NCBI GenBank assembly: GCA_963855995.1
Contig: OY979718.1
Coordinates: 28,553,282-28,617,281, forward strand
DNA: 64,000 bases
Direction: 5' to 3'
Source: Muricea muricata
Lineage: Eukaryota > Cnidaria > Anthozoa > Malacalcyonacea > Plexauridae
Part shown: piece by piece, positions 1 through 55,372 of the stretch
How the letters are laid out: each line of letters opens with the position of its first letter
Numbering within the stretch: the first letter of the stretch is position 1
Program-made: the position numbers and the translations under genes
Notes under the pieces: generated by a model
Seen by the model: only the letters and a program-made list of their open reading frames with translations
Databases searched by the model: none
Told to the model about the DNA's origin: nothing

Positions 1-1940
1 CTATTCCACAGTTCTGAAGCAAATAGCGCCTTGAAAATACTGCCCTGATGTCTTCGAACGACCATTTTCCATGCAAAGAATCAGCATAGAGGGTTATCTG
101 TGTGGCACGAAAAAAAAACATTGATAAGAGCAAAATGTGATATAAATTATGAAGGGGAATAAGAACCGTACACACGAAAATGTGTCTTCATGACAAGCAA
201 GAATGATGGTTTAAAAAGAAGAGATCGAAAGTCAAAACCTTATCTTAGGGCCTGTTTATGAGCTCATAATTATTGTGAAAATGCATACTCGGCGTGGCAG
301 CTCAAGACATTTGGCGTATCTCCGGCATGCGTTTTACATGGAATGCTCCCCGGTCGGACATCCATAATTCAATTTATTCTTGGTTTAAATTTACAAACAC
401 TGTTGACTTTGCTTGATAAATTTGTGTAACCCCTTGCAAAAACTTGCATCGACATGCCTCTTCTCCCATTTCTGCTCGGAGGCAGTTTTATAGCACTGTG
501 AGATGACGGTAAATAAGAGTGTAAACATTGCAATGGAGTAGAAAGGACATGATAAAATCTCAGACTGTTCATACAAAGGCTCAGGTTAAGTTGTATTTAA
601 TGTAGATTTATACGGGTAAATACAATACTTGAAGGTATAAATCAACCTAAAATATTAACGCTTCAACAAATATCAAGGCTAAACGAAAGACATTTACTAT
701 AAACATTTATATCTTTCTGTAAACGAACTTGCCGTATATATTGCACAGTACTTCATAATTCAGCTTATTTTCCATTTTCTGCACGAATATAATTTGAGAC
801 TGCTGTACCCGTGCTCAGATTCCATGCCTCATGCGGAGCATGTGCAGTAGTCCTATGACAAACTCAGCACGAGAACAATCTGAGAACGCCACACCGGGTA
901 AGCGAGTTAACTCGCTTTCCCAAATTTACTTGCTTTCTATAATTATTCCCTACTACTTTACAATTACCATTGGATTGGAATTTTTCAACGAGTTGTCCCG
1001 CTTAGGCGGGATCCCGCTAGTCGCTTGCCGAGAAACTTGTCTAGGCGGTATGAAAATTGTCATGTAACTTTCCGCCGATCCCGAGTTGTCTCGGCAAGGC
1101 GAGTTGAGAAACCGCACTCAATTCTGAAAATGTAAACAAATATTAGTTATAAAACTCAATTATGTTTCGACACAAGCTTTACATTATCTTGTAGGGTATA
1201 AGTGAGAACAAATTAAGAAAATACAAGCAATGAGCCTTTTCTAAACAAAGTTAACCTTCTATACGTATTCTATACCATTCTATACGTATAAGGAAGCCAA
1301 AATACAATATATAAGCTATTATTAAGTAATATTTATCATGCAAGAGTTGGTCGAGTGTCGAGTATTTACCATCTTAACGAGTTTATTCAACTTGTTTAAT
1401 TAAACGAGCACAAACAAAATAACAATAATAGCAGCATGTAGGAAGCCCCGGCGTGGCTAGCATCCACCCTTTGCCCGCATTAACTATCCTTTAAAATAGG
1501 GAAGGACGGAAGCAGCGGCAGGCGTTTCATACACATCACCGTAAACTATTGCCGTTTTTCCGTTTTTAATGCGTTTCTTTCGAGTAAAATCGATATAGTT
1601 GTCAAGAGCAGGTATGAATAAAAAAACATGAATCAATCATAGACTGTAAATTCGCAATAGAATACGGCGAAAACGACAGCATTTAGCAAAAAATGTATCT
1701 ACGAATTAAAGTGATTTAAATGAGGCCGATTACTACATTTTTCTAAGGCTAAGCTTTCGTCATGATACGACATCGTCAGAGATAAGAAAAATATAGAATA
1801 TCAGTTACATATTATACAAGCAAGCTAAGCAATTGTGTAAAAATATATATACAAATTAAGTGACTAATGGTCTAGAGAGATAAAAACAGGATGTGTAATT
1901 TCGTTCCTCTCGGGAAATTAGTTGTGGTTTCTCCTTTTTA

Positions 1941-2255
1941 GGTGCTGATTACATGATCCCGCATACCCGGGATTAAATGAAGCGTAAAATGATCTTGAGG
2001 TATTGAAAAAAGTCATTTATGAATTACGAAACAGCCAAAGTTAGAATGCCTTCAGTGCTGATGAATGAAAAGATATATTTTGCAAAAATTTATGCCCGAC
2101 ACTATTTTGTTTATTTCATATTTCGGCAAAACAAAAATCTCGAGCAATCAGGAATTAGACATTTTTTATACCATAAACTATGACTCATTTCAATACCTCA
2201 AAATCATTTTACGCTTCATTTGATCCCAGGTAAGCGGGATCATATAATCAGCCCC
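1941..2255. mobile_element. MITE, Harbinger-like, TTA duplication
   Basis: A 315 bp element whose two ends are inverted copies. The left end is GGTGCTGATTACATGATCCC and the right end is its complement with few differences; matching continues inward past the block around TGAAGCGTAAAATGAT. It is flanked by TTA on both sides (1938-1940, 2256-2258), the 3-bp target duplication typical of PIF/Harbinger. No coding capacity. Confidence 0.75.
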
Positions 2256-2349
2256 TTAATGTACACAGCTTCCTTCAGTCGTAAATTTATCGGATCAGTG
2301 TCCTTAGCAATAATGTATAATAATTTAGATGTTTAAATACCGATGATCA

Positions 2350-2516
2350 GGGTTCTCACAATCTGAGGAAATTTCCTTAGATTTATGCTGTTTCTATGGG
2401 GGTGGTATTAGGCATAATGAGGATATTATGCATTCCTTTCAAAATTTTATTGTTCGGCTAATTCCCAACCACCCTCCCCCTATAGAAACAAGGATATGGA
2501 ACTTAGTTGTGAGAGT
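2350..2516. repeat. Inverted-repeat element
   Basis: The ends GGTTCTCACAA and TTGTGAGAGTG face each other, and an inner pair TGTTTCTATGGGGGTGG and CCACCCTCCCCCTATAGAAACA extends the match. Probably a small decayed MITE. I cannot name the family. Confidence 0.5.
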
Positions 2517-2539
2517 GCTGCCGATGATGCTAATTAGGA

Positions 2540-3770
2540 TAGATGCTCTCTTATCCTATCATGCAAATGTCTAATTGTGCTGCCAATATAAATGTGTTGG
2601 CATTTATAGCAATTAATCTTGCAGACAATGTTTTTCTTGAAGCAAATTTGTCTTTGGCAGTAGCACAATCTGGTCGTTTACATATGGGTTGATCGGTTTT
2701 CATATTCAACACGTGCCGTAATGACGTGGATTTATGGATAATTCTCACCGGGAGGCCCTCGCGCTTAAAAATGTGTTTAATTTTGTGATCAACAGCATCT
2801 GAAACATATGGGATGCGGAGGTATAGCTAGTTGGTGTCGCTATTTGGGCGTCGTTTATGAGTCTTGGTGTTCGGACGAATCCGGTTTGCTAGTATTCGTT
2901 GAGGATTAAGGTGCGAGTGAACTCGTAGTGGTGTATGTCTTTGCCAGATTGTGATGAGCATCGTTGGTCAAATCAGTTTCTTTCGTTTTGTATGACGTTG
3001 GTTTTCAGTCGTTTGGTACTGCTGATTTGTAATGCATAAAGATCGGTTTCCTGGCTTATTTCCAATAGAATTCGAATTCCGCTTCTCCGTGTTCTGTTAT
3101 AGTAACTGTAAAATCTAAGAGTGATAGGGATTTGCCGTTAGTTGTTTTCGGTTTTTCTATCTCGAATTTTATGTTAGGACGTGTTTCGTTCACGATCTTA
3201 TGGAAGTTTTCTGCCTCTGCCTCGTCGGTAGTTTGTCCATAAATATCGTCAACGTATCGTTTATATGGGTCAGTGAGGTTGTAGAGCGCGAGTACACCAA
3301 GTTCCAGCTTATCCATGAACAGGATAGCCAGAATGCCAGAAAGAGAGGAGCCCATAGGTAAGCCATAGATTTGAAGACAAATAGTAGATTTGTATTGGAA
3401 ATATCTATTCCGAAGAATGACTGTTAACAGGGCTCCAATATCGGCTTTGGCAAGTGTTCCAATGGGTGAGGTTATTTGGTCGACGACGTTATTAATAGCT
3501 TCGTGGATAGGGACTGATGTGTATAGGTAAGGAAACTGTCTGTTTAGCTCACAATCTCTTGATTGAATCTGGTTTATTAGTTCTAAGCTATTTTTCAGCT
3601 TGGCCGGGATATCTTTTAGCATGGGTTGCAACATTCTGCACAATAACCACGATAGGCGTGTGGTGGGGCCGCTAATGATTGATACAATAGGTCTAATCTT
3701 GAAGTCTTGTTTGTGTGTTTTAATAAGTTGGTAGAACTGGGTAAATCGGTGTTGGTGGAAGTGTTCCTAC
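2540..3770 (-). pseudogene. Penelope-like element remnant, RT plus GIY-YIG
   Basis: The frame from about 3760 to 3056 carries a reverse transcriptase: FYQLIKTHKQDFKIRPIVS, the fingers/palm segment ending with GLPMGSSLSGILA, and the catalytic YVDD in KRYVDDIYG, followed by LLDFTVTI. After stops and frameshifts, another frame between about 2740 and 2545 gives CKINCYKCQHIYIGSTIRHL then HDRIREHL, a GIY-YIG endonuclease core. RT followed by GIY-YIG in this order is diagnostic of Penelope-like elements. The reading frame is broken several times and both ends are missing, so it is a dead fragment. Confidence 0.88.
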
Positions 3771-4816
3771 GTTCAGTATGCCGAGGGATGTTTCTTTCTT
3801 GTCAAATCTCCTTCCATAAATCTCGACACAAAAATGTATCTGTGTTTTACTTTACCTGTGCATAAACCGGAAGTCGTTGAACAGCTTGAGTAATATTCTG
3901 AAGAATTAACTGTGCAGAACACCACTACATAAATAAGTTTCCCTGCTAACGACACCACTTTTGGAAAGAAAGGCACACATATACGTAATCATGCAAAGCG
4001 GCAAACAGTGCACCTTGAAATTTACTCCAACTCAAAAGTAACTGATTGTTTACCCATAAACAAACCAGCAATCTGCAGTTTAAGGATGATTTCAGGACTT
4101 GAAATTTTAGTATTAAATAGTGCCTACAGCTTAATATTTTCGCAAATAATGCTCATTGATTGCAATGTAAAAAACGTACATTTCAACCATATTTGTTTTA
4201 TAAAACGAACTAGAAAATAAACAATCATGATAATTTTTTATTGTCTTATTGTCGATTGAGAAAAAACCCGCCAGTTAAAACACTTGTACTAAAAGATTTT
4301 TATTTCAACGTTTGATAATTTCTTTTCGTCACATGGTTTTAAAACTATTGGCTATTGGTATTTTTAAGCAAGTGAACATATTCAATTACACGTGAATATA
4401 ACAGCAAAAACAAGTTTACAAAATGGTGACTAGCCGCCGTTATGTACAAATTACGGACAAACAAAGAAATTATTCAACATGACAACAAAATTAAAATAAC
4501 TTCTATAAAAATTACTAAAACAATCATTCAACTAAAAAAGAATTCTCCGATAATTCCCCGATAATCACATCGCCTTCGGCAAATAATTGTTAAATATTGA
4601 ACTGGCTGAAGCTTGCAAAGTAAAAATTTGACCAGGCAACTCGCAGAAATAGACTATTTGTCGTTTAATATAGCAGCTCTCGCTCGCATGCAACACTGAG
4701 TACAATCGCTAAAAATTTGCCCTATAACGTGTACATATGTCGCAGTCGCGGATATTGCATTTCGAATATAGTCAGTTCTAAATAAATTTATTGTGCTCTA
4801 GTTGTGAAGAACAATG

Positions 4817-5627
4817 AGTTTTCAACTTGTTTGGTAAGGTAACTCACCTCCATTAATAGGTGTGTGATAGTGACATGGAAGAAAACTCTTACCAACACAA
4901 AGTTGGAACATTGTGATGACTAAATATCAATTTACTTTCCTTGCAGAAGTTACTGAAACTGCAAGATTAGCACCAGTTTAGTTCAAAAATTAGCAATTTC
5001 TAATTCATAATTTACAGATATGCATTTGAGATTTTAAAATGAAAACAGTTATTGTACAGGCAATTGTTCTCTTTTTAATATAATATATTTTACATTGTTT
5101 ATTTATACTTGATGCAAGTGTGGAGAGTCATTTCTTAAACACAAGTTTGGTGATATATTTTCTGAACTGCATTGTTGTATATTATTATAGAACATAATTA
5201 TGTTTCACAATATCTTGTCATTAAATTCTCACTATTATGCTTGGATGTACAAAACTAGGTGTCACATTAAAGTAATCATAAAATTAACTGCATTCATGTG
5301 GTAATTTTTGAAGTAAATTTATTATTAAATTTGCTGGTTAGGGCTATTTCAGATATGCTAGAGCACCTTTATCTCAAATATATATCTGTAAATTATGAAG
5401 ACATGACCATAACTGTCAATCATAGTGTCTCTAAACTAAAAATATTCTTGCTAATTTTTAATCTAAATTGGTGCTGATCTTGCAATTTTCAGTAACAGAT
5501 GAAGTGAAAGTAAATTGATATTAGTCACCACAATGTTCCAACTTTGTGTCGGTAAGTGTTCTCTCCACTGTCACTATCAGGCACCTATTAATGGGGGCGA
5601 GTTACCTTGCTAAACAAGTTGAAAACT
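4817..5627. mobile_element. 811 bp MITE with about 200 bp inverted termini
   Basis: Starts AGTTTTCAACTTGTTTGGTA and ends with the inverted equivalent finishing TTGAAAACT. The paired termini extend about 200 bp on each side with some indels, enclosing AT-rich DNA with no coding potential. No convincing target duplication, so the superfamily is open. Confidence 0.7.
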
Positions 5628-6384
5628 ACATATGATGAAAGCTAATGAGCACAAGCCCAAATCTTGTGCTCTTTTCAGCTTAGGTAAGTTGCCTCAATAT
5701 AATAAGCACCTATATAATTGTAGTGTTAGAATTACTAATAGCAGTTAGCTGAGTAATATATAATATCACTTGAGTTGAAAGAAATGACACTCAAGTTAAC
5801 AATTAAAACTGAAAATGTATTCGTCCACGGACAGTGTGTAGAAGCCGGTGTATGAAATCGATTAGCTAAATAAACACTGCAAGCAATCTCGGGTGGACAC
5901 AACATGTAATTCCAAGTCTAAATGTCTAATAGTCTTGACCGTTCTGAAAGAATACGATCACGAAATTTATTTCTCATACTTCTCTTACGACAATTATCTC
6001 TCATACATTACAAATATACAGGAAACCATTCAAGAGGCCTGTCAACATAGAGATCTGTCAACATAGCAAGGAGTTCAGGCAATAAAACGCTCGAAATCAC
6101 CAAGAGACCATTTCACATGAACTTTTGTCGATAAATAATTTTGCGACTTTTCACTAAATTCACTCAAATATATGCTTAAAATCTTTGCGTTATGTTTCTT
6201 CTTCCCATAAAACTTGATCAGATGAGTTTCGAAACAAAGGGACGGCAAAATTTGCAAAAAACGTCGATTTTGTAATAGAGTCTATAGTCTTTTGCCCTCT
6301 TGGTCCGCCATGTTGGATTTCTCTTGTTGACCCCACCTCCGCTAGTTATACGTCAGCAATCTATGTCTCCTATATCTATGGGGA

Positions 6385-6822
6385 TTATTGACCGAGCGCA
6401 AAGTCTGTACCATGAAATATCGGACTGAGGTTTTTTATAGTACGGACGATATATAGGTTTTTTAGTACGGATATTTCACAGTACAGACCGAACAAGAGAG
6501 GTCAATAAACTGTTTATTATATGGCTCGCAGTCATTTTCTGAGTTAGTGTGACATTTTGTATTTAAATGATGACGATCGTGGTTTTGTTAATTCGAATAC
6601 AAAAAAGTTGAACATGACAAAACTTTATTTTTTACACATAAAGTTTTCAAACATATCAGTAAAACATTAATTTCATTAATAAATATATTGCAACCAGTAA
6701 AAAGGGCGATTAAAAACACTGGGAAAAAGCCCGGTCCGAGTGCAGAAATTTACGGACCACGGTCCGCACGTCGACCAATCAAAATGCAGGATTTTTCAAA
6801 GCCAAATAATAAATATATAGCA
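6385..6822 (-). mobile_element. Hairpin-tailed element, copy C
   Basis: Read on the minus strand: a body from about 6822 to 6509 with inverted ends around CTATATATTTATTATTTGGC and its complement, the motif CCTGCATTTTGATTGG (6775-6790) near the start, and immediately after the body a 124 bp hairpin (6508-6385) whose arms begin TTATTGACC. The arms contain GTCTGTACTGTGAAATATC and its inverted partner. Same layout as the copies at 49541-49833 and 59466-59858. Confidence 0.6.
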
Positions 6823-7239
6823 CAGCTTTTCTGACACAGCTTTTATTCCAAACAACGGATACAAGATTTCCTACTAACTGAATACGATGGCGCCCGTTAC
6901 CGACCATTTAACGCTAAATTCTTTCTCGGTTACTTTCAGTTTCCACAAATACTTCCAGCTTCGTTTCATGTTTGTGTAGAGGGCTATATCTCTCTTTAAA
7001 TGTATTCGCTGTCATCCCTATATGCTGTTTAACTTCTCGACTTTCCTTTAACATTACTTCGGCTTTGTATACAATACTTCTCGTCAAACAGTTTTCTTAA
7101 AGTGGGCATTATTTATTGCTTCGACAATTACATTTACGTTCACTTACTGCCTTGGCTCCATTCATTTTGTTAAGAACGTGCTTGTTGTGTTTCGAACTTA
7201 CGTTTTTTACATTATCCATACAACTATAGCTAGTAACTT

Positions 7240-7690
7240 TGTTGACATTGTTGCGGGGAGGGGGCTTCTAACGACCTCCAGCAGTCAAGATAGCTGAGCC
7301 ACGAGCTCGCGTGCGTTAGATGCTTACACAAGCAACCTTGACTCGACGTTATTGCTCTTGATAACCAGAGCATAATTTGGAAGTGGTTTTTAATCCATTA
7401 CTTTATCTTATTTCATTATTTAGCTTAGCCACAGGGGCAGGGTCACCACAACAGCGTGAGCCAACTACTGAGGGCCCGTATTACCTATCTCATCCTGTCA
7501 ACTTTCCCTGTGGGAGGAAACTGGAGTACCCGGAGAAAACCCACGACTTTCGGCAGAGCGTTGAATATGCTCTTTTCACATGAGGATGGGCTTAAGTCCA
7601 CCTTACTGTTGATAGAACTCGGAACCTTAGAGGTTAAAGGCGAGTTGTCAGACCACTACACCACCGAAGCCCCAACAATACACGTATGAC
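7240..7690. repeat. Probable dispersed repeat with GGAGAAAACCC block
   Basis: More GC-rich than its surroundings. It contains CCTGTGGGAGGAAACTGGAG followed by TACCCGGAGAAAACCCACG, a block I recognise as widely repeated in marine invertebrate genomes. Overlapping open frames on this strand appear to be by-products of that composition. Element family not identified. Confidence 0.4.
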
Positions 7691-9971
7691 GGCGAATTTA
7701 ACTACTAGTATATTTGAGTCAATTTTTATATATTTTTATGTAAAAGTATGCAAGAAACCTTAATATGGCTTGCATAACGCGTTTTCACAGCACTTTAAAT
7801 TGGCAACCATTACAACAAAATTTCTTGTAGCCATGACCTTTAAGGGTTATTTACACAGTTTTCAGTGCGAGTTTTTTTCCACTGTTGCACAGGCATAAGC
7901 GACTAAGCGAATTACAAAAGTTGTTAGTGTATGCATTTATGTACATGTCTATTTTAACAACGGAGAGAAGACGGCCGTGAACGCAGTAATTCTACCTTGT
8001 ATATTAAATGCTAGACGACGTAAAGTTTTCTAGCAGGTTGACCAATGTCATTTAGATGTGTATTTTGACATTTTTCACTCTCATTTTTCACTTTCACGCA
8101 CAGGAAACAGATGCGTCATTTTCTCCTTTCATTTAAAATGGCTTTGAAATATATGACAATCACTGCCATAAATAGTTAAGATATACGGATATCATATGTA
8201 TATTCATACAAAAGCAGCAGTAAATGAGCACCGCAAGCAGGTGATAGACTAAATTACTTCATGTTATGAGATTACTCTGTCTCCTTTGATTTGGAAACTC
8301 GAGTAACTTTAAAGCGGTTAATGTCGCACGAAATTAGGGCTCTAAATAAGCGCGCCTGTATAATAACAACGATCTTTACTTAATCCAAAGAAAGCAAATT
8401 GTTATTACAATATTCTTCCTAATCCTTTTCAATTGCCTCCAACAGGAAGCTGGTAATTAAAGAGATATTCATAGCATAAGTATTATGGTTACCGACCCAC
8501 TGCATACAAAAGGAACGTCGTGATAAAGAGTTCCAACTTGCACATGGCATCGCTAGGATTTGGGCTATTCTAGTAGCGTAACTTTACACAAGCTGTGAAG
8601 TTTATATTGCTTTTTAATTTGGCGCCGAGCTGAGAATAATTGGTAATAAAATGAACATACAAAACATACTGACCTATCATAATCCCCTGCGCGATTCAAG
8701 CCACAGGAGGCACATATAGTTATTCTTCATGTACATACGTGGCTGGCATTGAATTATCTTAACCACAAGAAGTCGGCTGCTGAACGGTCGCAAACAAAAC
8801 GCAATGCGACAACACGGTGAGGGAACGAACCCAAAATTAACATACTGTAGATTACTTTCACATCACACTCTTTTAGACAGGTAACATTCGTGCGTTTGCC
8901 TCTATCACGTCATGTGAAATTGCGAAAAAATATCGAGTAGAAAAAGACAGGCTGAGTCAAACGAGGACTATTTTCAAATTCTAAAACAGACACAAAGACC
9001 ACGAAAATATATTCATACAGAACTTGAAAACTCTATGATCAATTGCATGAAAGATCATTCTATGCCTGTTGTAAGCGTTCCGATAACGGTCACTAAAAAA
9101 CACTAATATTTCGCAACATGCATGGTCGCATGTCATGCAGTAGGCTATATTTTGCAGCTACCGTCAACCGGAAACATAAAAATATTTTTGAGGAAAATTT
9201 AGTTGTCGACTAAACTGCTAAAATTTTGTCACAGGTATAAAGTACTATCAGTATAATGCACATTACGCATGAAAAAGATGCAGGTGATATTTAAAGGCAT
9301 ATTGCATAATTACACTTTCTATGGCTGTTGATACTGAGCTGCATAATGGTTAGATACGCGTTATACAAACCGAAAACTACAAAAATATAATTAACAAAAC
9401 GTCACAGTTGTGCATGAACTATACGCTTTTCCGACGTACACAAAACGATGAAAACAAAAGCGGTTTATCTTTAGAAAAAGTTAATCAATTTGCCTTTGCT
9501 GCAGTCGCTTTTTCAACTTCAATAACACGAAATGAAACCGCTCTGTCGGTGTTTGTTTTTTCAAATAGGTAATGCAAACGAAAAGCAACGATCGGCATTT
9601 ACCAAAGAAAAGAATAGCAATGTTTTCATTAAAATTGAAAACGTGTTTCTATTGGCCTTTTATTAAAACTCTAGGTGGTCTCACAACCCCTGCACTGAAA
9701 GTCTGACTAAAAATTCCCTGATAAACTCCCGTAGCAGCTCATAATGCAACTATTATTAAAAGCATATATGGCACCGTGAGAGCTACGCATATGTACAAAA
9801 ATACAGAGGGCAGAAAACATTGCAGAAAACCGCTCGTCATAGTTCAATAATTTGTTGTAATAATGGGATTAGCGTTTGTCTTTCTCATATCGTTTACTTG
9901 CTGCACAAAAGCAAAACGATGTAAACATTGCAAATAACAATTTTTAATTGAACGAGGCATTATAAGATATC

Positions 9972-9977
9972 TTTATT
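9972..9977 (-). terminator. Probable poly(A) signal of mab-21-like gene
   Basis: AATAAA on the minus strand, about 60 bp past the mab-21 stop codon. This is the nearest canonical signal, and implies a very short 3' untranslated region; later signals could also be used. Confidence 0.5.
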
Positions 9978-10034
9978 TCCGTACATATATTTGTGGTATA
10001 TTATATCTCTCTGCACTATATACATTCATATAAA

Positions 10035-11108
10035 TTATAATATTTCCGTAGAATTAGGATTCGTTGCTATTGCGCGAGTAAGTTTCCAAGCCTGATGCGC
10101 AGCATTGTTAAGTACTTCGCGTGATTTTCCAACAAACAAATCAACACCTTTGAGGAAGAAGTGAGGACAGCGACGGCACTGTAGACACGAGACTAACTGC
10201 AACAAAATACCGTTAACACGTTCTCCAAGTGATGTTTCGTCCCATTCATCTTCACGCGGATGTTTTTCACACTCGTACAAAAGTAATGTTTTCATAAGTA
10301 AAGGTTGAATAGGTTTCCCCGGAAGATCTAAGTGTCTCTCAAACAAAGTCTTCAGTATGGCCAAGCACTGTTTACGGCAACTTCCCCGCAAGAGTACGTC
10401 TTCGCCATCAGAGAAATCCAAAACCCATGCGTCACCTTCTGCCGCCTGCGTTTCGTAGCCTGGAAACATATCGCCTGCAAGTAGGTTAAATCCCCGACGT
10501 TTTACAATTTCGATTTCGGAGTGCGATGGCCAAAGTTGGTTATCGGTTGGCCATACACAAACATTCCGGGGCCATATCGCGCCACATTTGAACGCAGGTA
10601 CAAGATTAAGCATATACTGGTCTCCGATTACCAGTACTGTAGATGATGTTCCACGTTGCACACGAACCTGTTCTCTAAAGGAGCACTTCGCAGCGGCTTC
10701 TGCTACCAGAGAATGAAACCTAGCCCTCATTTTTCTAGCTGAAAGATAGCCCGATGCTGTGATAAACTCAGTCCACAACGACATAGAACGCTTCCGTTCA
10801 TCACTGAGTTTAAGCATTGCACAACCTGGCGGGCAGTTGTCGTCAATGAAGTTAAACACTCCCATCTGATTTAGAAACAAACACAACTCAAAACGGGTTG
10901 AGGTGATGACACGAAGACCGGCATAACGGCCGTTTTCTTTCTTAAATGAGGAGATAAATCTGGGTTCCAGACTTTCCACTGCGGAAAGAACGTCGTTGAT
11001 GATTGCAACAATGCTTTCTATGGTTCGGGTAATCTCATGCCTTCTGTTACGGACTCTCTCGTGAACGTACTGCAGAATAAACTTGTTCAGCTCAACGAAG
11101 AATGCCAT
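10035..11108 (-). CDS. MAB21L: mab-21-like protein, intact single exon
   Basis: An uninterrupted 357-residue frame starting at the ATG at 11106-11108 and ending TAA at 10035-10037. Human MAB21L1 and MAB21L2 have 359 residues. The open frame runs on upstream, but I see no ATG in it nearby. It aligns over its whole length with them (from memory): EPRFISS (48-54), LNQMGVFNF (79-87), LKLSDERKRSMSLW, FITASGYLSARK (115-126), CRKQCLAILKTL, YECEKHPRE and NGILLQLVSCLQCRRCPHF (299-317). The family has a nucleotidyltransferase-like fold related to cGAS and acts in neural and eye development in bilaterians; no catalytic role is established for MAB21L1/2. The gene lies inside the last visible NBEA/LRBA intron, on the same strand. 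Intronless structure is normal for the family. Confidence 0.97.
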   Translation of the reverse strand: MAFFVELNKFILQYVHERVRNRRHEITRTIESIVAIINDVLSAVESLEPRFISSFKKENGRYAGLRVITSTRFELCLFLNQMGVFNFIDDNCPPGCAMLKLSDERKRSMSLWTEFITASGYLSARKMRARFHSLVAEAAAKCSFREQVRVQRGTSSTVLVIGDQYMLNLVPAFKCGAIWPRNVCVWPTDNQLWPSHSEIEIVKRRGFNLLAGDMFPGYETQAAEGDAWVLDFSDGEDVLLRGSCRKQCLAILKTLFERHLDLPGKPIQPLLMKTLLLYECEKHPREDEWDETSLGERVNGILLQLVSCLQCRRCPHFFLKGVDLFVGKSREVLNNAAHQAWKLTRAIATNPNSTEIL

Positions 11109-13426
11109 ATCAGGCGACAAAGAGCAGCGGAAAATGCTTGATGATCCGTGCTGGGGTGGCGTAGACGACTTTAAACAATCCGTATTGACTTCAAAATATA
11201 GTAGCTCGCTTGAGCGCGTCCTGTACCAATTAAACTTGTCACACGTTATTAATCTTTGTCTCAGACAAAGCTGGACGAAACTGCACCAATCACGAGAAAC
11301 TCGTCTTCCCTTTGAGGCAAGTAATATAATGATGACAGAGCACCAGCTTTTCTAAGTGTTTTAGTCACGCGGTTATGTACTGCCAAACAGCACTTTGACA
11401 AGTTGCGTGCATGGACCAGCAAAAAACAAGTGCTTGCCAACGCTACGTTTGCAACTGGCCCACGTCGACGACAAAGCGAGAAACGAGCGAAGAGACGAGC
11501 AGACTTTTCGAGTAATGAGCGGTTGTTTCAAGAACATGAATTTTATCGTTATTTGCACTACTGTTTGGTTAACACATCGAGATGAGTAAACAAAGACCGC
11601 CTACCGTCTTAGTGCAAAAGCTGTGAAATTGATCACGCGGGAGCATATAGAAACATACGCTCCAAGCGTCGCGCCGATTTTGCCGAACACTTTAACATAC
11701 GCCACAAATAGTCAACCTAGCAAAATAAGTCAACCGACAATGACCTACACAGACATACATTTCTTACACACGACATAAGACTTACTCAACATATTTCTTA
11801 ACATTAAAAAGTAATAGTTAAGATGGCATCTTGGCGTGAGAAGTTCGGAATGTACAAAATTTAACGCTAATTGCTTAATGAGGAATTTCAGTGAATTTGT
11901 CTCACACCCTTTCACAACGAGGCGGAGTAATATTATGAGGAAGCATTATGTATTAATAGACCTGCGAAAAGACCGTAATATCGTAGTGCGTTTGTCCGGA
12001 AGATTCGTTTGTTCTTCATGTAAAGCACGGGCTGCTTAAGATCTTATCTTTATTTTAATAAGGTAGTTGAACAGTTTTGACTAATTCCCTTTCTCTTAGC
12101 GTCCCAATTGAAATTATCGCGCCATTCAACTTCGTAGTTTTATTCAAATCGGAAGCATAGAGAAGTTCTGTTTACACAACATCACTTCGAAAGGCGGCAG
12201 GGGTCTCGTGTCTGAAATCATCAACACAAATCAAAGACGAATGTTTTCAAGTCTTTACAGTACCTCAGTTCCTTACAAAACGAGTGACGATGGATACAAA
12301 GTTAAAAACACACACTCCAGAGCGAAATGCGGTCAGAATGGAGGTCTCCATCAGAAGCAGACAAGCCACTTCAATGTTCTTTGATCTTCAAGTCTCGCGA
12401 AATATTTACATCAATAATCAGGATTACTTTTGATTTCGGCGTTCTTTAAAGCTGGCGCAATATTTGAATTAGAATGAGATGACTTATTGATTCTGCCAAA
12501 TGTTCTCTCTAAACAGAGCAATGCAATCACACAGCAATTATTTCTAACACTATTACATATTAATAGAGGTATGTTTTAAACACGCGCTAATGGGAAATTT
12601 GCAACAAACTGAGCTCAACGTCCAACACAATCACCATGCAACGATTTACTGCTTTGTACATTTATAACGACGTACATTTATAAAGCCCAAGTCGTACAAT
12701 ATCGTCAAGCCGACTAATTGAAGTGCATCACTCATTACGTTTATATACAAAAATGGCTTATAGGATATATGTATATAAATAACCCAGATATACACAAAGT
12801 TGAATAGAGTATATTCATAAAGAGTCTGGTCAAAAATTCGCTCACGCAGTAACGAAAAACAAAAAATTTCCGACCACGCTAAAATAAGAAACTTTTTATG
12901 TTATTTCTTTTGAAGAAAATAACACGAAGTATAGATCACATGTCCGATGAACACTCACAAAATACTGAAGCCGGGCGCACGATACGATATTAGTCGGTCG
13001 ATTTTTGTTAACTCCCTGAATCGTTACGTGTGCTTTCGTCGTTTAGTCGGATCCCGTTGTGTGCTTCTCGCTTTGGACCAAACTTGGACTTGTTTAAACA
13101 TCTACTCCATGAAACAGTCTTTATTGTGCATACATGCAAATATTCCAGTGTCTACTTCCTACAATCCACATATTGGTAAGATCTTATGCAAGAAATTAAG
13201 GTCTAAATAAGTCTAAATAACTTATTAAGGTCTAAATTTTACCTTACATTGAACTGAATTAATCAGGATATAGTTGCAGATCTAGACTAATCTTAAATGC
13301 GCTGAAAGCGCGCAAGCAAAACAAAGCAGAAATTCTGACTGATGATTTTTTTCGACATCAACATGCCACGTGTTAAACGAGATTACTTTTTAAAATTATG
13401 AGATTCTAAAGGACAAGTACGTCAAA

Positions 13427-13490
13427 GTTAAGGAAACTGCAGCCAGTTTAAACATAAAGTTAAGGAAACTGCATCAATTTAAACATAACA
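13427..13490. repeat. Short tandem duplication, unit about 33 bp
   Basis: Two adjacent copies of a unit beginning AAGTTAAGGAAACTGCA and ending TTTAAACATA. A local slippage duplication without coding meaning. Confidence 0.6.
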
Positions 13491-16400
13491 GCTCACATGA
13501 GTAAACTCTTGCAGCGACTTAAGGTGCGATTTTCTACTTTTGATTGATGCGGTGTTTCGCCTTGATTAGTGATGTTAATTTGAAGATCAGTGATATATAA
13601 ATCCACTAGTTCAAATCGTCCAAAAGACAAAATTGCACCTAAAATTGCAGCAAAAATATAGTGAGGATTTTTAATTCTATAATAGTTACGTATATTTTAC
13701 CTAACAGAAAACGACATTTCATCGACACGATTTTTGCAACAGCAATATACTAAAAGGTTAAGAATGTACAAATTGTAGATTTCATATTTAATGTCATCTC
13801 TTCTTACGGGTTGCTACAACATCAAACGGAAGACAACCTTGGTCTAGTATAGCGGAGTGCAATTTAAGCGTCACTATATTGAATAAAGACATCCAAGTAT
13901 ACGCTGCAGCAAGTATTACTGTGATGCAATAAATTTTCCATAAATCACGCGACGCATTCGCTGCAAAAGCTACAACTAAGTCTAAGTGTAAAGCAGGGAA
14001 TCAACTTTGATTTTTACCGACACATTGACTGAATACTACCCAGTCAGGGACCTTCCACTTGCAGTCAGCGGGGGCGAACAATTGCCAACACAGATGGAGG
14101 TAAATTAGCAATTCTTCGCAAAGGTAAAAGTTACAAGCTTAAAACGTAGAAATGACGCCATCAAAAATAACGGGGGTTTAATAAAAAAAACATAAGCTTT
14201 AAAAAATTCGACAAGAAAGATCATGGGCTGTATTACACAAACCGTCATACTAAACAAGAAGCAGATTGCTCAGCGCGGTTTTAGATTAGTTTATATGGAG
14301 AATGCCTGGTTTCCTTTTAGTTGTACCTGTCGTGAATATATCAAGCTGACCAGTGTGATAAAGTATGTAAACAGATCTACCATTATAATATGATTAATTT
14401 GATACATCTCGCAAAAGAAACGACAGACCTATTTAAGAAAGTCTTAGGGGCTGCACTACATAAGACTTACGATAACGGTAATACATCATGAAATTAATAC
14501 GTGCCTACATGTGTACATGCAAGGTAAACACATTGTTTGTTGACATTACAGAATGCGTTAGTATATCCTATATATGTAGCCTGTCAGTAAATTTAAAGTT
14601 AAATAATTTTTCTATCTGTTGGTAACCATGGACGATGGACACACAAAATGATGTCGATTGCATGTATGTCCAGAGAATAAAAGAATCTTTTCATTGGAAA
14701 TACAAAGAAACAGCATGGATTTGACAGCTGAAGTGGCACATCGAATGAGTTGATAAATTGAAGTACCTTCCTTCCTTTAAGCGGTACATGCAGAAATACA
14801 GGTCTACCACATGGGCTTCGCCACTACTGTTAGCGGAACACACGCATCCGAAAAATAACGTCTCAAACTGCAGTCCCTCCAAAACCATTCCTTTATACAA
14901 CTTATAACTACATTGAAAGCACTCCACGTATTTCTAAGCCATCTCAAGTATATCCGTAAAACCGTAAACATTATATTGGCCATAATAATTGTAATACTTG
15001 AGAAATACTAGACAGGGCAAACCCATACCGTGGGAATTTTTTTTGAAAGGGAAGTGCCAACTGAAATCAAACATAACCAAACTCTTTTCCAGATTTACGC
15101 AAGAAATAGCAGACTATCCCACTCAAGTGAATATTTTATGTTACTTATGTTAACGCTTTAATGATTCCCTTGCACATATATATGAATGAACGTTTCTCAT
15201 GTTGTAGATATCTATATTTGTGCAAGTACATTAAACATATTTAAGAAGATATTGTCAGTAACTATAGTAAAACAATGGTAAGAAATATAAATGGCGTGGA
15301 ATTCGAAACAAGAGCATTATTTTACAAAGGTCAATTGCACGATTGAAATCTCTTTATGAGATTATGAACCAATATTACGCAGAAGAAAGTGTAATTGTTC
15401 ATATTACAATGCAAAGCACACAAAGAGAAGTGATTGCTCCTTGTTGTGTTGAAGGTATGTGTCATGCGCGTGTAAATTTGTATGATAACAATCAACGGTT
15501 ACTGTAAATAAATTTTGCCATTCATCTTCTATTTGAGATATCATCAATAGTATAGTAACAACGAGATTAGTATATGTTGACAGTGTCATTTCGCCATTCA
15601 GGTATAGTATGCAGCCATCTTTGCATGTAGTTATCCCTCCCAAGCCACCTAACCAAGTTCCTACTTAAATCACTTTTACTTGTTTACTTGCTTCTTTCCT
15701 ATGGTTTGGCTTTAAATCAAGTTTGTTGGTAACCGGTGGTCAAACTGACCAAATGATCTATTATTATAGAGCATATTGCTTCACATAAAGGATGAATTGG
15801 CGACCTCGTCAACACGTTCATCATACATGCACATACAAGTTTATAAAAAAATTCTTTCATGGTATTATCATTGTATATTATCATTGTATACAGCACGTGC
15901 TTGATTAATAACATTGTATTTGTACTTGATTGACAGTCTAGTGTCATTATGCTGACCCACGCAACTGTGGTGATTCCTTTTGTGAAAATGTATTCCTTTT
16001 GTGAACAACAAACCTACACGCAAGCCTTTCGTTGCCACTTCATTCTTTCGACAAATTAGGAATAGCTCCCTGTGTCCTGAAGATATACAGCACATACACC
16101 ATGCCCTTGAAGAAACTGATGGTTTTTAGATAAAACAAGACACCTCCGAAGGCGTTCACTACGCCTACCAAGGCAGAAATGGACACAAGGCCAGGAAACG
16201 CCGTAACTAGAGCGTTAAAACAAGTATATGTCGTACTAATGTGACACATAGGTGGAAACACTCTGGAAACAACTTTCGCTTCTAGGTAACTACCCGCTAC
16301 TGATCAGAAATCCGAACAATTTTTTGCTTAAATCCACCGATCCGTGAGCCTATACCCCCACCCCCTTTTTATATATAATAACAGTCGACGTCTCTGGGTT

Positions 16401-17824
16401 TATTTCCATCTTGGGTTGATTAGTGTTTTACTTTATGTTACTGTTGGTGTTTCAGACCTCGTATTTCTTGTGTACCGAAGTAGCTGGACACATTGCATAC
16501 CATACATGGTTTATTTATTTTTTATTTACTTATTTATTAAATAAATTATTAGCACATGAGAAACCAAACATTTAAAACAGATATAAAGTTAAAGTTTAAT
16601 GAATACATGAAAACAATTGCTGCTCAAAACTCTGATACTTTTCCTGGAAGGTTATTTATAGTGATGAACGCAAGAAGAAGATGGAATACTATCGGTTTGA
16701 GTTACTTTTGGTCAATACAGAAAACATTTTAGCTTGGCTGTCACGCACAATACGCTGGTGTAATAACTTTTATTAGTTCTACTATTCATAGCATTTACGT
16801 TCATACTATTAAAATCATTTACTCAACAAGTCATAACATTACCATTCAAGATGCAAGATTCAAGAAATATAAAACATTTTCCGTGTTGATATACAGTTAT
16901 ATCAACACGAGTGGAAATTGGAAAAACGAGAAATTGTGTGGACGATGCAACAAATATAATAACAAGCTTGGTACATTTAAATTTACTTCTGATGCTGCTG
17001 TGAGGTGCAGAAGAAACTAGATTAACTAGGACACTCTGCCAAAAGCCCTACTAAGGTTGAATTTTTAGAATCAAATTTAAAGACTTTCATACATATGACA
17101 AGATTCTTTTGTCATAATACCACCTACATGGCTGTTTTAATTTTGGGTAGTTGCAAGTAAAGAAAAATTTACTAAAAGTGTACATGCATTACATAAATAT
17201 ATTAACCTTATATAGCACCAATTAAATCAGTACCAACTGTATATAGTACATTTGATTGCCTAAATTCTCCAGATAATTTGTAGTGAACTTTCACATGTAT
17301 TCCTGAAATTGGAATGTCAAATATATCTTATCTCTTGTAAATATATAGCTAGGATTCATCACTCCTGGCAAAAGTTTCGCGGTGGAATTTGTCGTTTTAA
17401 AAAAAATTGCATGAGAATGCTTGCACGTAGAACCTTCTTGCGATTTAGTATACATGTTAAAATGCGCGTTTTGTTCACATGTTGAGCTAGAAATTGAGTT
17501 TTACCGCCATGTTTAGATCGGCTCACACAGCTTGTGCCAGCGGTATTACCGATGAGCGGCAGCCGAATTTTTGACACCGAGAAAATTAAGAAAAAAACAC
17601 AAGTGGGGCAAATTTAAAACTCAGCCACGCCTACGGAAGGCGGTTTTTCGATTTGTTACCATCGTTTCTCAACGGTGTCATTCTTTCATCGAAACAGAAT
17701 GTTCATTTATCGCTGATAAAGTTTGTTTTGAGCTGTTGAGGTCAGTACTAAAAATTCAAGCTCACCGGTAAAAGTAACATGACGGGTAAAAAATCTAAAA
17801 CGAATTAATGGAACATACACCAAC

Positions 17825-18111
17825 CTTTGGATCTAGCTTCTGATTATTAGGATGTTCTTCATCGAGAGAAAAATAGAGGGCGGTGGTTGTAATGGCGAGT
17901 GAACCAACAGCAGCAATGCATGGCGAGATACTTCTGCATGATGCAGTTAACACAACATGATCACGTGGATTCAGATCCTTCTCGTTGCTTTCTCCCACAG
18001 TCATGTCAGCGGTATCTTCCTCTTCAGTAGGATGTTGTTCCTCATCACCGGAGATGTTCACATTTGCAGGTATGGCTTGATGATTAGCGTTTGCCTTGAC
18101 GCGGTATGTCT
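17825..18111 (-). CDS. NBEA: NBEA/LRBA exon 18, start of PH-BEACH domain
   Basis: A 287 nt exon, acceptor ATTTTAG, donor GTTGGT (a weak donor). After an acidic linker it reads VVLTASCRSISPCIAAVGSL and AITTTALYFSLDEE, ending KLDPK. Human NBEA has VVLSTPAQLIAPVVVAKGTL and SITTTEIYFEVDED then KIDTK, and continues with VLAYTEGLHGKW in the next exon. I found no such next exon on the minus strand down to position 1, so the following intron is at least 17.8 kb. Confidence 0.93.
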
Positions 18112-18915: not shown

Positions 18916-19084
18916 CTAATGCCTCTAGCAAGGTAGCCTCTGGATGTGTTGAGCCATGCGGGTTATTAACAAGCCGAACGCGACGTCCATAATCGTCCTG
19001 CCAGTTGTCCAATCTTTTAAACTTTGTTGCTGGTTTATCGCATTCCATCCACGCACCATATTCACTTGTGATAATCCCCATTAT
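18916..19084 (-). CDS. NBEA: NBEA/LRBA exon 17, end of DUF1088
   Basis: A 169 nt exon, acceptor TACCAG, donor GTAAGT. The product reads IMGIITSEYGAWME, then LDNWQDDYGRRVRLVNNP and HGSTHPEATLLEAL. Human NBEA has ILTNKHGAWGA, LDYWEDDLRRRRRFVRN and FGSTHAEALLKAAI. The NP-x-GSTHPEATL box is a family signature. Confidence 0.96.
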
Positions 19085-20258: not shown

Positions 20259-20920
20259 CTTTTGGAACTGTCTCCTTGCAGTATTTTCCTCTTTCTCACG
20301 AGTTGCGCTGGTAATATGATCATGAATCGCGCTCTTGTGAACAAACGTATCGTAAGCCAAGTCCGACGCACTCTGGAAATACTCGTGTTTTTGACCATCG
20401 ACATCTTTTAGTTTCTGAAGAATAAATAGCGCTTCACTCGTAGTCAGAACTAGCCTCTCACGTGTTGCATGAGCAACCATACGACCCTCGTTAATCAAAT
20501 CCATGAACGCCGATCCGGCATGACGTTGCAGCGAGTTCTGCCATTCTTGAGAACAAAGTAACATCACAAGTTCCACAACGGATTCCGACTTAAGGCAAGA
20601 TAAGCCTTCCATTAACAACTCTTGATTGTGGCTACCAACAAGAACTTTAGACAGGAATGAGCAGAAATCCAAGAGGATTTCGCGAAGAAGAAAGCCAGAA
20701 GTCCCAAAGGTAAGCTCGAGTTTTTCAGAGAGACTCATTCTATTTGACAGTCTGGTGGTAAAGGTCGGACTACTGAGCTCGTTGTCTGGACTATCTAAGT
20801 CAACGTGTTCCAGGTCATCACTCTTTACAACACCAGCGTTGGCCGCTTCAGATGAGCTTGAAACATGTGTGGGACTACCAAAGCCAATGTTAACAGCGGC
20901 AGTGTTACGACTTTTTTTAC
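20259..20920 (-). CDS. NBEA: NBEA/LRBA exon 16, DUF1088 region
   Basis: A 662 nt exon, acceptor TTCAG, donor GTAAAG. It opens with about 60 residues of serine/acid-rich linker, then LLREILLDFCSFLSKVLVGS, QELLMEGLSCLKSES, VVELVMLLCSQEWQNSLQRH and FMDLINEGRMVAHATRE. Human NBEA has LLREIFVDFAPFLSRTLLGS, VVELVMLLCSQEWQNSIQKN and FIELINEGRLLCHAM. In vertebrates a linker of several hundred residues precedes this block, whereas here it is short. Ends RRQFQK in phase 0. Confidence 0.96.
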
Positions 20921-21374
20921 CTGAACATTAGACGTGCAAAGTTGCGTAAAAGTTCTCATTCGGGAAAAATATCTTGTATCACAGGATATGTACTTGTCTG
21001 ATGTTGCTATGTTCAAATTTACATGACATCATAAAAAAATAAACAATTGATGAACACCACACGCGAGATTATAAAATATCGAAGCAACAGCCTTAGCAAA
21101 AAAGAAGCATTTGATAGGGAATGCATTTACCGCCATACATTTATATGCAGCTGAATACTTTGGCTAATTTCCCTTGAGATAAGAAATGACAATGGCAACA
21201 AAAAATCTTAATTTGCTTATTTGAAACAGCTTTTGAAATACTTAACAAAGCTTGTCGCAACTTTTTCATAACTTGCTTGATTCTTGAGACATTTCGACTC
21301 AATCATGTCAGCTGTCCGCCATTTGGGATAAATTCTTGAGCTCACCTTTTATGACATCACAAGTGGGACAACCC

Positions 21375-23875: not shown

Positions 23876-24494
23876 TAGTTTAAAAACTGAATAAAAAGCG
23901 CAAGAGTTTTATGGTTTCATTTTTATCAACATCTGATAGATAAATTACAAAAAGAAATTTTACAAAATCCCATTGGACTTAGCAAATAAAAGCAATTTAG
24001 TAAGGACTTTTTTCCGTGATTCCGGAAAGCCTACTAAGTTTTCCCCTCATTTTACTCTTTTTCATTTAACATCTAAAATCAGTCACACATAATACAAGTG
24101 AGTCCGAAAAATTCGGGAAAAAAATGGCAGTTTGTTACAGGCCTTATATTTTTTTGCACAATGACCATTTGAATATTGTCAAAATTTGGTTTAATAAAAT
24201 ACCTACAAACTGAACGTTCATAGTATCTAGACATTGTGTGCGTTAAAAATTGCTTTGAAGAATTTTGAAGAAAACAAGTCATTGTCGCTACTTACTAGCC
24301 AATGCCGTTTCATGAAAAAAAGTGAGGAAAAATATTTTCTGACCTGGACCGCTTTTCCAGAGACTGCCTCTTAAGTTCTCAAATAAAGTAAATCGTACCA
24401 CAACTGACAGAAGGGTTGACTAGTAAACATGGGTTTCATGTTCGGTGCGCTGACAGAACAAAATAACATCACCAAAAAGCAAGTTTTACAATAC

Positions 24495-24753
24495 CTTCTT
24501 TCGGAGAAGTTTCACCATTTGATTTAGGACAACTTGGAAGGACACCTTTCTCCTCCTCCAATATATCACGATACTTAGAGACAGTAAGAACAGCGACAAA
24601 ATAGACGACAGTTATTGCCAAGAACTGGGAATGTCGACTGTCCTCAAAATCGCGATATATGGCCGCACGCAGTCGATGCACATCCATATCTTGCAACAAT
24701 TTATCTGGGTCAGTAATGGTAGTTAGGTAACCAGGTATATTCTGAACAACATT
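24495..24753 (-). CDS. NBEA: NBEA/LRBA exon 15
   Basis: A 259 nt exon, acceptor TATCAG, donor GTATTG. It encodes [20 protein letters not shown] and [20 protein letters not shown] then DILE, nearly identical in layout to NBEA DPDRLLQDVDINRLRAVVFR and VSKYRDILE. The hydrophobic run [13 protein letters not shown] is a conserved buried helix of the family rather than a secure membrane anchor. Confidence 0.95.
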
Positions 24754-24829
24754 CTGATAAAATAACATGCAAAGAATAATAAATAAACACACATGCACAC
24801 ACTAGATATAACATATCAATATTCTGTAC

Positions 24830-28818: not shown

Positions 28819-29649
28819 CTTCTGGTTGTTGTTTGTGATGCAGAAGCTTGTCAAAAAGCTAAGCGAGTCTGTTGCTGCTGTATTTGCTCTTGTTCTGAAC
28901 AGAATAATATTTTGAATAAAAATGATAATGCATGAATAATGAACAACATTTAGTTCAGTAGTTGTTTACCTGCCTTGGATCGCGCGAGGATATAAATTCA
29001 GCTGTGCGCTAGTAGCAGCCTAGCACTACATCGATTGAAGGAATAGCATCAAGCCTACAGCAGCGGAGATTCCAAGATTCTTCATCTCTTCCACGTGCGT
29101 CGAACATGTCAATACAAAGGGCGCAGATAGCACGAAATTCGGTCAGTTTTTAATCACGAATCTGATCCTCTGCTGCCTTCGTTTGCGGTCTTTTTCATCA
29201 GAGGGGACACCGTGCAAAGATACACCTTGTGTATAGTGTGTATTGACGCAGCTAACACGACCTAGCTAGGCCGCGAGCAACACGAGATCTACATTTTTTA
29301 TTTGCGAAGTGTCCCAATAGTGATATAACAAAACACACGGGACAAAGAACTGTGTCATGGTTATGACGTCACAGCACAAATTGAATTTTCGCATGCAAAG
29401 TGTCAAATTTCGTGACTTTGAAAATCGGTAGAAAAAAAACTACGAGGTATTTTTAAAACGGTTTTCTGATTTAAAATCAGCGCAATAGTCGCGCAATAAA
29501 AACGGTTAAAAAATCTCGAAATAAAAAAATTCGTGTCATTAGCACTTCAACGTAACGTTCAGAGACATACTAATGTCACTGACGTGAGTGACTCTAATTT
29601 TTCGCTACGATACGACCGATGTGGAAAACAGCATTCTGCTTGCACTCAC

Positions 29650-29984
29650 CTAGTCTTGTGCACTGTCTCAGAAAACCACCAGTACTTAAATTCCTGTTCG
29701 CCTCAACACCACCAAAGCTAAAGTTGCTTGTATAGACTACGGTGTCAACAAGGCTCATGACGCGGTTCAAAAAAGAAAATGCAGTCTCTAACTGCATTCC
29801 ACCACACGGCTGTATAACATCTTGCGAAAAATCAGGCGACGTGGCTGAAGAGAGCAAGGGCAAAAGATCGCCACAACAAAATATCATACTATCCGATAGA
29901 ACAGAAATAAGGAATGCCAGATTTGATATGTAGATAAAGTTTTCTTTGGCATTCACAAAATCCACAACGGTTTTCCGAGTGTGA
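29650..29984 (-). CDS. NBEA: NBEA/LRBA exon 13
   Basis: A 335 nt exon with acceptor TTTTAG and donor GTGAGT. The split codon restores Ser of the VWRSH motif. The product includes VVDFVNAKENFIYISN, LLPLLSSATSP, TAFSFLNRVMSLVDTVVY and STGGFLRQCTRL. Human NBEA has MDFVNSNENIIFV, LLPLLSAATSP and SSGGLMRQCLRL. Among the best conserved segments in the window. Confidence 0.96.
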
Positions 29985-30290
29985 CTAAAAAAAATATTCC
30001 GGCGGTCAATTCAAATAGCTAGGGGCTAAGAACTCTGGGTAAGTTTCGAGCTTGTTATTTACCCAAAAATGCGAACTGTATCTCTGTTGGAAGGTCAAAT
30101 CTCTCCGGTTACCTTTTTTGTTAAATATGGATTACATCTCTCACGTTAAGTACATGCATATTTTTTGAATGTCTTAATCGTCCAACCTAATACATCAGTT
30201 GTTAGGGTAGGGTGATTATCCTATAAGATGCGATTGCAGGCTGGGCCCTGAAAATAAATGTCCAACATCACACAAGCTAAAATAACGTAC

Positions 30291-31504
30291 CTTCTCCAGA
30301 CTTGAAGATCAGACTCGACGGCGAATAAGATATCAGCCAATAAACGTTGATGCATTGGGGACCAAAGAAATTCTGGTATAAGCGGCCTTGCTTCGTGTGG
30401 ACTGTTTGGTGTGGTAGGAGGGGTTGGGCCTAAAGTACTCTCATTCCGTTTATCCTCTTTATCATTCACTATCTTCACCTTGCTAATATCAATAGAATGT
30501 GCTTTGGAAACCCCAGATAAGGCGACCGCCTGGGGTAATTCACTATCTTTGGGGATATCGTTATGAGTTTCTTGTTCCTCAGGTAAATTACCACCAGGTT
30601 CGTTTACAGCAGGACTGTCACCCATTATTTCTGTAACGTTCTGTAAAGGTTCAGTTAGCTCTGTTCCATCTGATTGTTGTTCAACAGTCTCGTTTTCTGA
30701 GCTCAGACTTCTAATAGCTTCTTTTTCTGATAACTTCTCGGAAAGTTGATCAGTAACTACCTTACTCTTACCAATTTGTGTTTCATCCTTCAAATCCGCA
30801 GCATCAGTATCATCTGTTACATTGTCAAATTGAACTGTGTCAAAATCGACAGCATGCCCTTCGCATTTCTTATTTTTATTTGCAAATCTTTCAGAGTCGT
30901 GCTCGAGTCTCCCTTTATTCAATTCAATTATCTTTTCATCATTCTCAGTTAACTCAACTTCTTCATTTACAGACGTAAATGAGCCCAATTTGTCTTTGCT
31001 GGACTCATCGCAGACTTGTGTTTCCACTTCTTTTTCGCTTTCCTCTGTAATGTTGTCCTTGCCTTCGACAGCAGCATTTCCTTCAGAATCGGCTTTCCCA
31101 CCTTCATCAGTCTCTTCCCCCTTCGGTTCTCCATTTGAACGGTAATCAGTATGAGACACTTGGTTATTCTCTTCAGAAGGTTCATTGTCTTGTTCGATGC
31201 CATTGGTCACATTTTGTCCTGAATCTCCTGCAGGTTCGTCACCATCTTCCTTCGATGATTGAATAATAGAGTAAAAAAACTGTTTACGGTAGTCTTTGTC
31301 CTTCTTGGATTCTTGTGTCTGGCTTTTGCGTTGGATATCAACCGTGGCTATATTAACAGACTTTTTCTTGTTAGAGTCGCTCGTATCAGAACTTGTCGAT
31401 TGTGTTCGGGTTAACGGTGCTGGATCCTCCTCTACGGTAGTTTTTGGTTCCGATTCATCCTTTATTATGTTGGCCCACTTGTTGGCTAGACCTCTTTTGA
31501 AAAT
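30291..31504 (-). CDS. NBEA: NBEA/LRBA exon 12, acidic linker
   Basis: By far the longest exon, 1214 nt (404 codons plus 2 nt). It starts IFKRGLANKWANIIKDE after acceptor TTACATTAG and ends at donor GTACGT. Most of it is a low-complexity, Glu/Asp/Asn/Ser-rich linker with little expected conservation. The last 40 codons turn into the conserved block IPEFLWSPMHQRLLADILFA then VWR, matching NBEA IPEFKWSPMHQRLLTDLLFA. In vertebrates this linker carries kinase-anchoring sequence; I cannot recognise such a site here. A proline/threonine stretch (GPTPPTTPNSP) just before the conserved block is a plausible phosphorylation site. Confidence 0.9.
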
Positions 31505-31855
31505 CTAATGTAATAAAAGAGCAACTTTATTCCTGCTCACCTTTTTTTCCGGCAATGGCATTAGTATCAAGGCAATTTAAATAAAATTAACACTAGTAAA
31601 TTTTCATGGCCACCGCTTACGATTTTTAAAAATCTCACGTATAGAAATTAGGGAAATTGAGTTGCGGTCATACATATCAAAGCGTGATATACATGTACAT
31701 GTAGTAGTACCCGAAATGTATAGGATTTTTCACTACCTCATACACCTATTTGGTAGTCACCATAACTTCCCAACGAAGGACCTTCGCTCAAAACTTAAAA
31801 CGTAAAATTTCGTTTCAGGTAGTGAAAGAACTCAAAACTTTCGTGTTGTTTATAC

Positions 31856-55287: not shown

Positions 55288-55372
55288 CTAAGCAATGGTT
55301 AAAAATGTTTGTTAATACTAGCAACCAGTAAAAATGTCATATTTACACCTGGCAAGCTTAAAAATATGCCTG

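Follow-up and report, generated by a model that had tools for sequence, protein, structure and literature searches.

A mab-21 gene on the host strand within a single predicted NBEA/LRBA intron of the octocoral Muricea muricata

We analysed 64,000 nucleotides (nt) of the octocoral Muricea muricata (hereafter, the window), which correspond to positions 28,553,282-28,617,281 of the 60.7-Mb contig OY979718.1 (C3 below) in an assembly of 453 Mb and 74 contigs. A complete gene of the mab-21 family (MAB21L1/2, 'D6') was found entirely inside one predicted intron of an NBEA/LRBA gene (hereafter, the host), with both genes on the minus strand. The intron extends over positions 98..17824 (minus strand; 17,727 bp, phase 0, GTTGGT...CACAG) and interrupts the PH domain of the host at DPK^I; exon 41 of human LRBA ends at this very residue and in this phase (c.6363, K2121). 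On balance, we regard it as probable that this is an ancient nest in an intron homologous to LRBA intron 41, that it has been retained mainly via mab-21 enhancers in host introns, and that the orientation of the nested gene has been flipped.

The coding sequence of mab-21 was located at 10035..11108 (minus strand) and consists of 357 amino acids and a stop, its coding part being free of introns. It lies in a minus-strand open reading frame (ORF) at 10035..11351 that matched the Pfam families Mab-21 (E-value 4.9e-32) and Mab-21_C (3.5e-25), and reading from the ATG at 11108 yielded 357 codons with no internal stop. Among the 41 solved sequences listed, the top match was human MAB21L1 (5eog; 441.7 bits, E 2.5e-131). 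The runners-up were a cGAS-like receptor (cGLR; 103.4 bits), the cGAS group (43 bits or less, including 4jlx and 4kb6, which are porcine cGAS according to PMC4897736) and MB21D2 (31.5 bits). The octocoral protein shares 55% identity with human MAB21L1, with a single internal gap, and retains Arg51 of the latter, a residue associated with eye disease. Both the Mab-21 domains with the best match to MAB21L1 over cGAS, cGLR and MB21D2, and the uninterrupted coding sequence, a state reported for Nematostella and vertebrates (PMC1784063), place the gene in the D6 family. The preliminary description of this DNA had recognized a full mab-21-like frame beyond the PH exon of an NBEA/LRBA gene, and these results bear it out.

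One property of MAB21L1 was found only in part. Of its Mg-coordinating pair, E75 is retained (E74 here) and E73 is replaced by arginine (R72, codon CGT, 10893-10895), which, to judge from the sequence, speaks against nucleotidyltransferase activity of the octocoral protein. This pair marks activity and not family, because no such activity was observed for MAB21L1 itself (PMC4897736). A genome-wide search with mab-21, in which the best 20 candidates were scored, gave seven matches: its own locus at 823.7 bits and six weaker ones, the best of which reached 73.1 bits. The nested gene is the sole close MAB21L1/2 copy found among these candidates. A different mab-21 paralog as the true ortholog was ruled out, as the next best of the scored candidates had just 23% identity. 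Relatives of the nest were also sought in bacterial and archaeal genome contigs and in viral contigs, using the mab-21 protein and a two-row alignment as queries; none was found in any of the four scans, as could be expected for an animal gene.

The host was traced through four splice-joined exons on the minus strand. The first two, at 20259..20927 (5' edge approximate) and 18916..19084, carry the first and second halves of DUF1088 and were delimited by Pfam matches and splice joins. The third, at 17825..18111, stops within the PH domain at ...KLDPK and was identified by PH_BEACH, PDB entry 1t77 (E 6.5e-6) and its splice joins. The fourth, at 97..1, continues beyond the window start to a full length of 118 nt and was detected by tblastn with solved human NBEA/LRBA chains (51.2 bits, E 1.8e-9; the best match in a reversed-window control scored 26.2 bits). 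Once joined, the four exons kept an open frame through DPK^ITLY, with DUF1088 scoring 97.5 bits and PH_BEACH scoring 50.2 bits across the junction of the 17.7-kb intron. The preliminary description had seen no further host exon ahead of position 1, and in this it was wrong. A search of the minus strand over 1-18.3 kb with patterns of BEACH motifs gave no match, and it missed the closing exon because the EGLHGKW-type motif reads DSLHGKW here.

At coordinates below those of the window, the PH-BEACH exons follow on C3, colinear and all on the minus strand. All 10 pieces of the LRBA query and all 10 of the NBEA query were recovered (E < 0.01), counts that include the two exons of the window, with the final ~50 query residues falling outside the stretch examined. 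A search of the genome for the BEACH family gave 17 matches. Four, all minus-strand, lie on C3 at lower coordinates than the window, and the others are on different contigs. Together with an ORF at 31850..32218 (minus strand; ORF limits) that holds the end of the DUF4704 region (Pfam, 8.7e-9), the order DUF4704, DUF1088, PH and BEACH was found on one strand in the part of the host that was compared.

The intron between the third and fourth of these exons contains all of mab-21, whose start lies 6,716 bp beyond the host donor and whose stop lies 9,937 bp ahead of the host acceptor. The neighbouring host introns that could be measured span 1,174, 804, 699, 3,713 and 1,032 bp. The acceptor (...CGTGCCACACAG^ATA; in a longer view, ...TTTTTTTTTCGTGCCACACAG^ATAACC) is of a regular type. 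No host exon was found between 17825 and 97, where tblastn matches among the best 25 listed reached 21.2 bits at most, under the 26.2 bits of the reversed control. Two findings that the preliminary description had named as refuting the nesting, a terminus of the host or BEACH exons separating it from mab-21, could thus be excluded as far as sequence without RNA allows. The single-intron placement of the preliminary description held, with host exons joining in frame on both sides; its coordinates (10035-18111) are bounded by the stop of mab-21 on one side and the 5' end of the PH exon on the other, whereas the nest proper is the intron at 98-17824.

We compared the position of this intron with that in the human genes. 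Loss of LRBA exons 36-41 has been described as c.5646_6363del, a deletion of 718 nt with complementary DNA sizes of 988 and 270 bp (PMC8072023), and it follows that exon 41 ends at codon 2121; our recomputation found the deletion size in agreement with the two product sizes. The LRBA chain was numbered with the help of two nonsense sites, R2139 (exon 42) and R2439 (PMC7952427): exactly one of 40 offsets fitted both, and under it the K of DPK takes position 2121. On this numbering, the border between human exons 41 and 42 matches the octocoral intron site in both residue and phase.

The exons that follow agree as well. The four host exons after the nest intron (C3:28553378-28547485) measure 118, 103, 116 and 113 nt, that is, 450 nt or 150 codons, and 99 of the 150 residues are identical to human LRBA. 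In human, a deletion that lies 19.38 kb upstream of MAB21L2 takes out four exons of LRBA, an in-frame loss of 150 residues that cuts into both the PH and the BEACH domain (PMC11511899); the octocoral four-exon total equals this number. The 103-nt octocoral exon also fits a called deletion across LRBA exon 43 that covers 103 bp (PMC10339488), a figure that is the span of the deletion call and not an exon length as such. These exon counts are most simply read as a loss of LRBA exons 42-45 beside MAB21L2, which would put MAB21L2 in intron 41. Most likely, then, human LRBA holds MAB21L2 in the homologous intron, and the matching exon lengths appear to point to a very old exon structure. The placement has points against it besides the nature of the 103-bp figure: c.6363 of PMC8072023 was assumed to follow the transcript numbering of PMC7952427; the intron was assigned from exon counts and not from a map, which leaves room for the intron before it; and a translocation in NBEA intron 41, which places PDK3 upstream of MAB21L1 (PMC10557686), fits a location in intron 41 without stating it. 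In human LRBA, the likeness to the octocoral host comprises the residue and phase at the end of exon 41, the four-exon total of 150 amino acids and the 103-bp deletion call, which fits the 103-nt octocoral exon.

The Mab21-Lrba/Nbea nest was reportedly described by Tsang in 2009. The study of Nikolaidis of 2007, which includes Nematostella, reports conserved synteny of D6 genes for every metazoan taxon used apart from Drosophila (legend of Fig. S10) and infers a joint duplication of both pairs (PMC1784063). Presence of the nest in the cnidarian-bilaterian ancestor, before the duplication of NBEA and LRBA, is supported here by the nesting within a single intron and by the match in residue and phase. 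The same inference in the preliminary description is right yet not new, having been in print in 2007 and 2009. To the known arrangement we add an octocoral example, its agreement with human LRBA in residue and phase as well as over four exons, and the shared strand of the two genes. Among other known cases, human MAB21L1 is likewise a single-exon gene inside an NBEA intron (PMC9681113). The nematode mab-21 is likewise nested, in the largest intron of sel-2, the NBEA/LRBA homolog (PMC4994411), whereas the coding sequence of C. elegans mab-21 contains introns (PMC1784063).

The octocoral nest differs from the published cases in orientation, a point absent from the preliminary description. Both mab-21 and its host are on the minus strand, in contrast to the opposite strands of human MAB21L1 and the nematodes. 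Human MAB21L2 we take to be on the plus strand. LRBA runs from high to low coordinates, i.e., on the minus strand, to judge from the breakpoints in PMC8072023, and the human pair would thus be opposed, unlike the octocoral one. MAB21L1 and NBEA are transcribed from opposite strands (PMC9681113), and in nematodes mab-21 runs antisense to sel-2 (PMC4994411). Apart from PMC1784063, whose Fig. S10 draws orientation, none of the titles and abstract openings listed in our literature searches mentions orientation in cnidarians; should the 2007 figures show both genes of Nematostella on one strand, our observation would be a further example and not a new variation.

This difference would be most simply explained by an inversion of the mab-21 segment within its intron, in either the cnidarian or the bilaterian line after the two had split. 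A tentative extension, for which we claim somewhat less than an even case, is that the nest survived such an inversion and that what selection kept was the place of the gene, in this phase-0 intron of the PH domain, rather than an antisense arrangement; the cnidarian host and mab-21, sharing a strand, would then have to solve read-through and premature polyadenylation jointly. That the location was kept while the orientation changed speaks for cis-regulation independent of orientation, or for passive retention, more than for antisense pairing.

In the account that we consider probable, mab-21 would be a separate, intact gene with a single coding exon in one large host intron. Host RNA would run through it and remove it by ordinary GT-AG splicing, while mab-21 would be expressed from its own promoter and its own polyadenylation site. 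On the shared strand, host RNA would need to ignore that site, or the two genes may be used in different cells. A candidate polyadenylation signal, AATAAA, lies 57 nt beyond the mab-21 stop at 9972..9977 on the minus strand, which is also the host strand; it is weak evidence of such a site because this word occurs 26 times on that strand across the 17.7-kb intron. The nest would be kept mainly because mab-21 enhancers are spread through host introns and breaks are selected against, as suggested by vertebrates. Zebrafish with a deletion upstream of mab21l2 have eye defects, while truncation of lrba gives no visible phenotype; in Xenopus, mab21l2 but not lrba is reduced when the conserved element CE14, located in an lrba intron, is targeted. 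The same report tabulates 15 conserved elements (PMC11511899). By analogy, these data support the view that a regulatory territory shared by both genes has kept them together, and make it plausible that regulatory DNA locks mab-21 in the host intron, as the preliminary description had suggested. The enhancer account is compatible with a flipped gene because enhancers need no fixed gene orientation.

Several observations weigh against this account. The donor of the nest intron, GTTGGT, is less typical and no strong match to the consensus. The evidence for the nest is genomic sequence, with host splicing and a separate mab-21 promoter being predictions. In the fly, the two genes are ~800 kb apart (PMC1784063), and in Pristionchus, mab-21 has left sel-2 (PMC4994411). 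As both separations came about without evident harm, the lock is not absolute.

These separations also favour the main rival, passive retention, by which the nest is ancient with nothing holding it, the long intron being a large and rarely broken target and losses occurring by chance. We judge this to be unlikely, if clearly the strongest competitor. It is in line with the finding, made in C. elegans and P. pacificus, that the largest intron tends to be longer in genes that host antisense genes than in others (PMC4994411), and a flipped orientation is the expected trace of a neutral internal inversion. Against it stand the survival of the nest in a homologous intron in the octocoral and, as we infer, in human since their common ancestor, and the eye phenotypes caused by non-coding lesions in vertebrates (PMC11511899).

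A much less probable explanation is that the nest is kept since overlapping antisense transcription of host and mab-21 is regulatory. The opposite strands of human MAB21L1 and NBEA (PMC9681113) and of the nematode pair (PMC4994411) would suit it, whereas the octocoral nest persists with both genes on the minus strand, which contradicts it in this lineage: the same-strand layout weighs against antisense pairing because location was kept and orientation was not. Moreover, transcript levels of hosts and antisense genes are generally uncorrelated in P. pacificus, and the sel-2 pairing was lost in Pristionchus (PMC4994411).

We hold equally little for an independent re-insertion in the octocoral lineage, whereby an intronless copy of mab-21 would have entered this same intron; such an event would account for the strand. 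A coding sequence without introns and a differing orientation are what such an event would leave behind, but in Nematostella and vertebrates, too, this coding sequence lacks introns (PMC1784063), the best 20 genome candidates included no other close mab-21 that could have been the source, and a chance landing in one given intron of a 453-Mb genome is very unlikely. Least likely of all is an assembly error in which a misoriented scaffold piece gave the mab-21 segment the wrong strand, for although the strand rests on the assembly and not on raw reads, the segment is inside a 60.7-Mb contig, the window contains no N and no marked gap, and the flanking host exons join in frame.

The nest intron also contains repeats and fragments of mobile elements. 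Inverted repeats flanking mab-21, of a kind that might have brought about an inversion, were not detected in 1-18.2 kb (seed 14, at least 40 nt). Two pairs were found elsewhere in the intron, 1937-2016/2180-2259 (80-nt arms) and 4817-4923/5521-5627 (107-nt arms), with arms 88-89% complementary; these are possibly small non-autonomous elements. A reverse transcriptase fragment lies at 3056-3766 on the minus strand (Pfam RVT_1, E 1.6e-8; Penelope-like by eye), and a fragment at 6914-7096 resembles GIY-YIG by eye, with no match in Pfam.

Upstream in the host, three minus-strand ORFs probably contain further exons: 24469..24801 and 29594..30010, each with a likely exon, and 30221..31504, with a likely low-complexity linker exon. 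They were assigned by order, by strand in the case of the linker, and by a likeness to NBEA/LRBA seen by eye; none had a Pfam match, and the coordinates are ORF limits and not exon limits. Elsewhere in the window, remains of a BEL/Pao-type retrotransposon were found at 60648-62620 on the plus strand (Peptidase_A17, 1.8e-39; Integrase_H2C2, 1.9e-10; RVT_1 and rve below cut-offs), to which ORFs from 57972 onward, with no Pfam match, may belong. Two near-identical Cys-rich ORFs of 106 and 105 residues lie in opposed orientation at 36006-36326 (plus) and 37014-37331 (minus); they had no Pfam match and, by eye, resemble a P2X7-type C-terminal domain. A tRNA-Arg gene with anticodon GCG, which is unusual in an animal nuclear genome, was detected at 55372-55445 on the minus strand and may be a tRNA-derived repeat.

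The mitochondrial contig (19,292 bp) carries an uninterrupted cox1, one detected tRNA gene (Met) and a MutS of 985 amino acids with an HNH domain; a mitochondrial mutS marks Octocorallia, and the assembly thus belongs there. A bilaterian or a sponge as the source of the window was rejected on this ground. A second COX1 match apart from this contig (C1, 38414782-38416095; 497 bits, one stop) is either a mitochondrial insertion or foreign DNA.

With the octocoral locus, the gene nest of a coral can be linked to a single human intron border down to residue and phase, and a same-strand case is set against the published antisense cases. This separates two reasons for nesting: antisense pairing would fix the orientation of the inner gene, whereas shared enhancers or mere location would leave it free. 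The same-strand nest also serves as a natural experiment on the passage of a host transcript across an entire inner gene that has a likely polyadenylation signal of its own.

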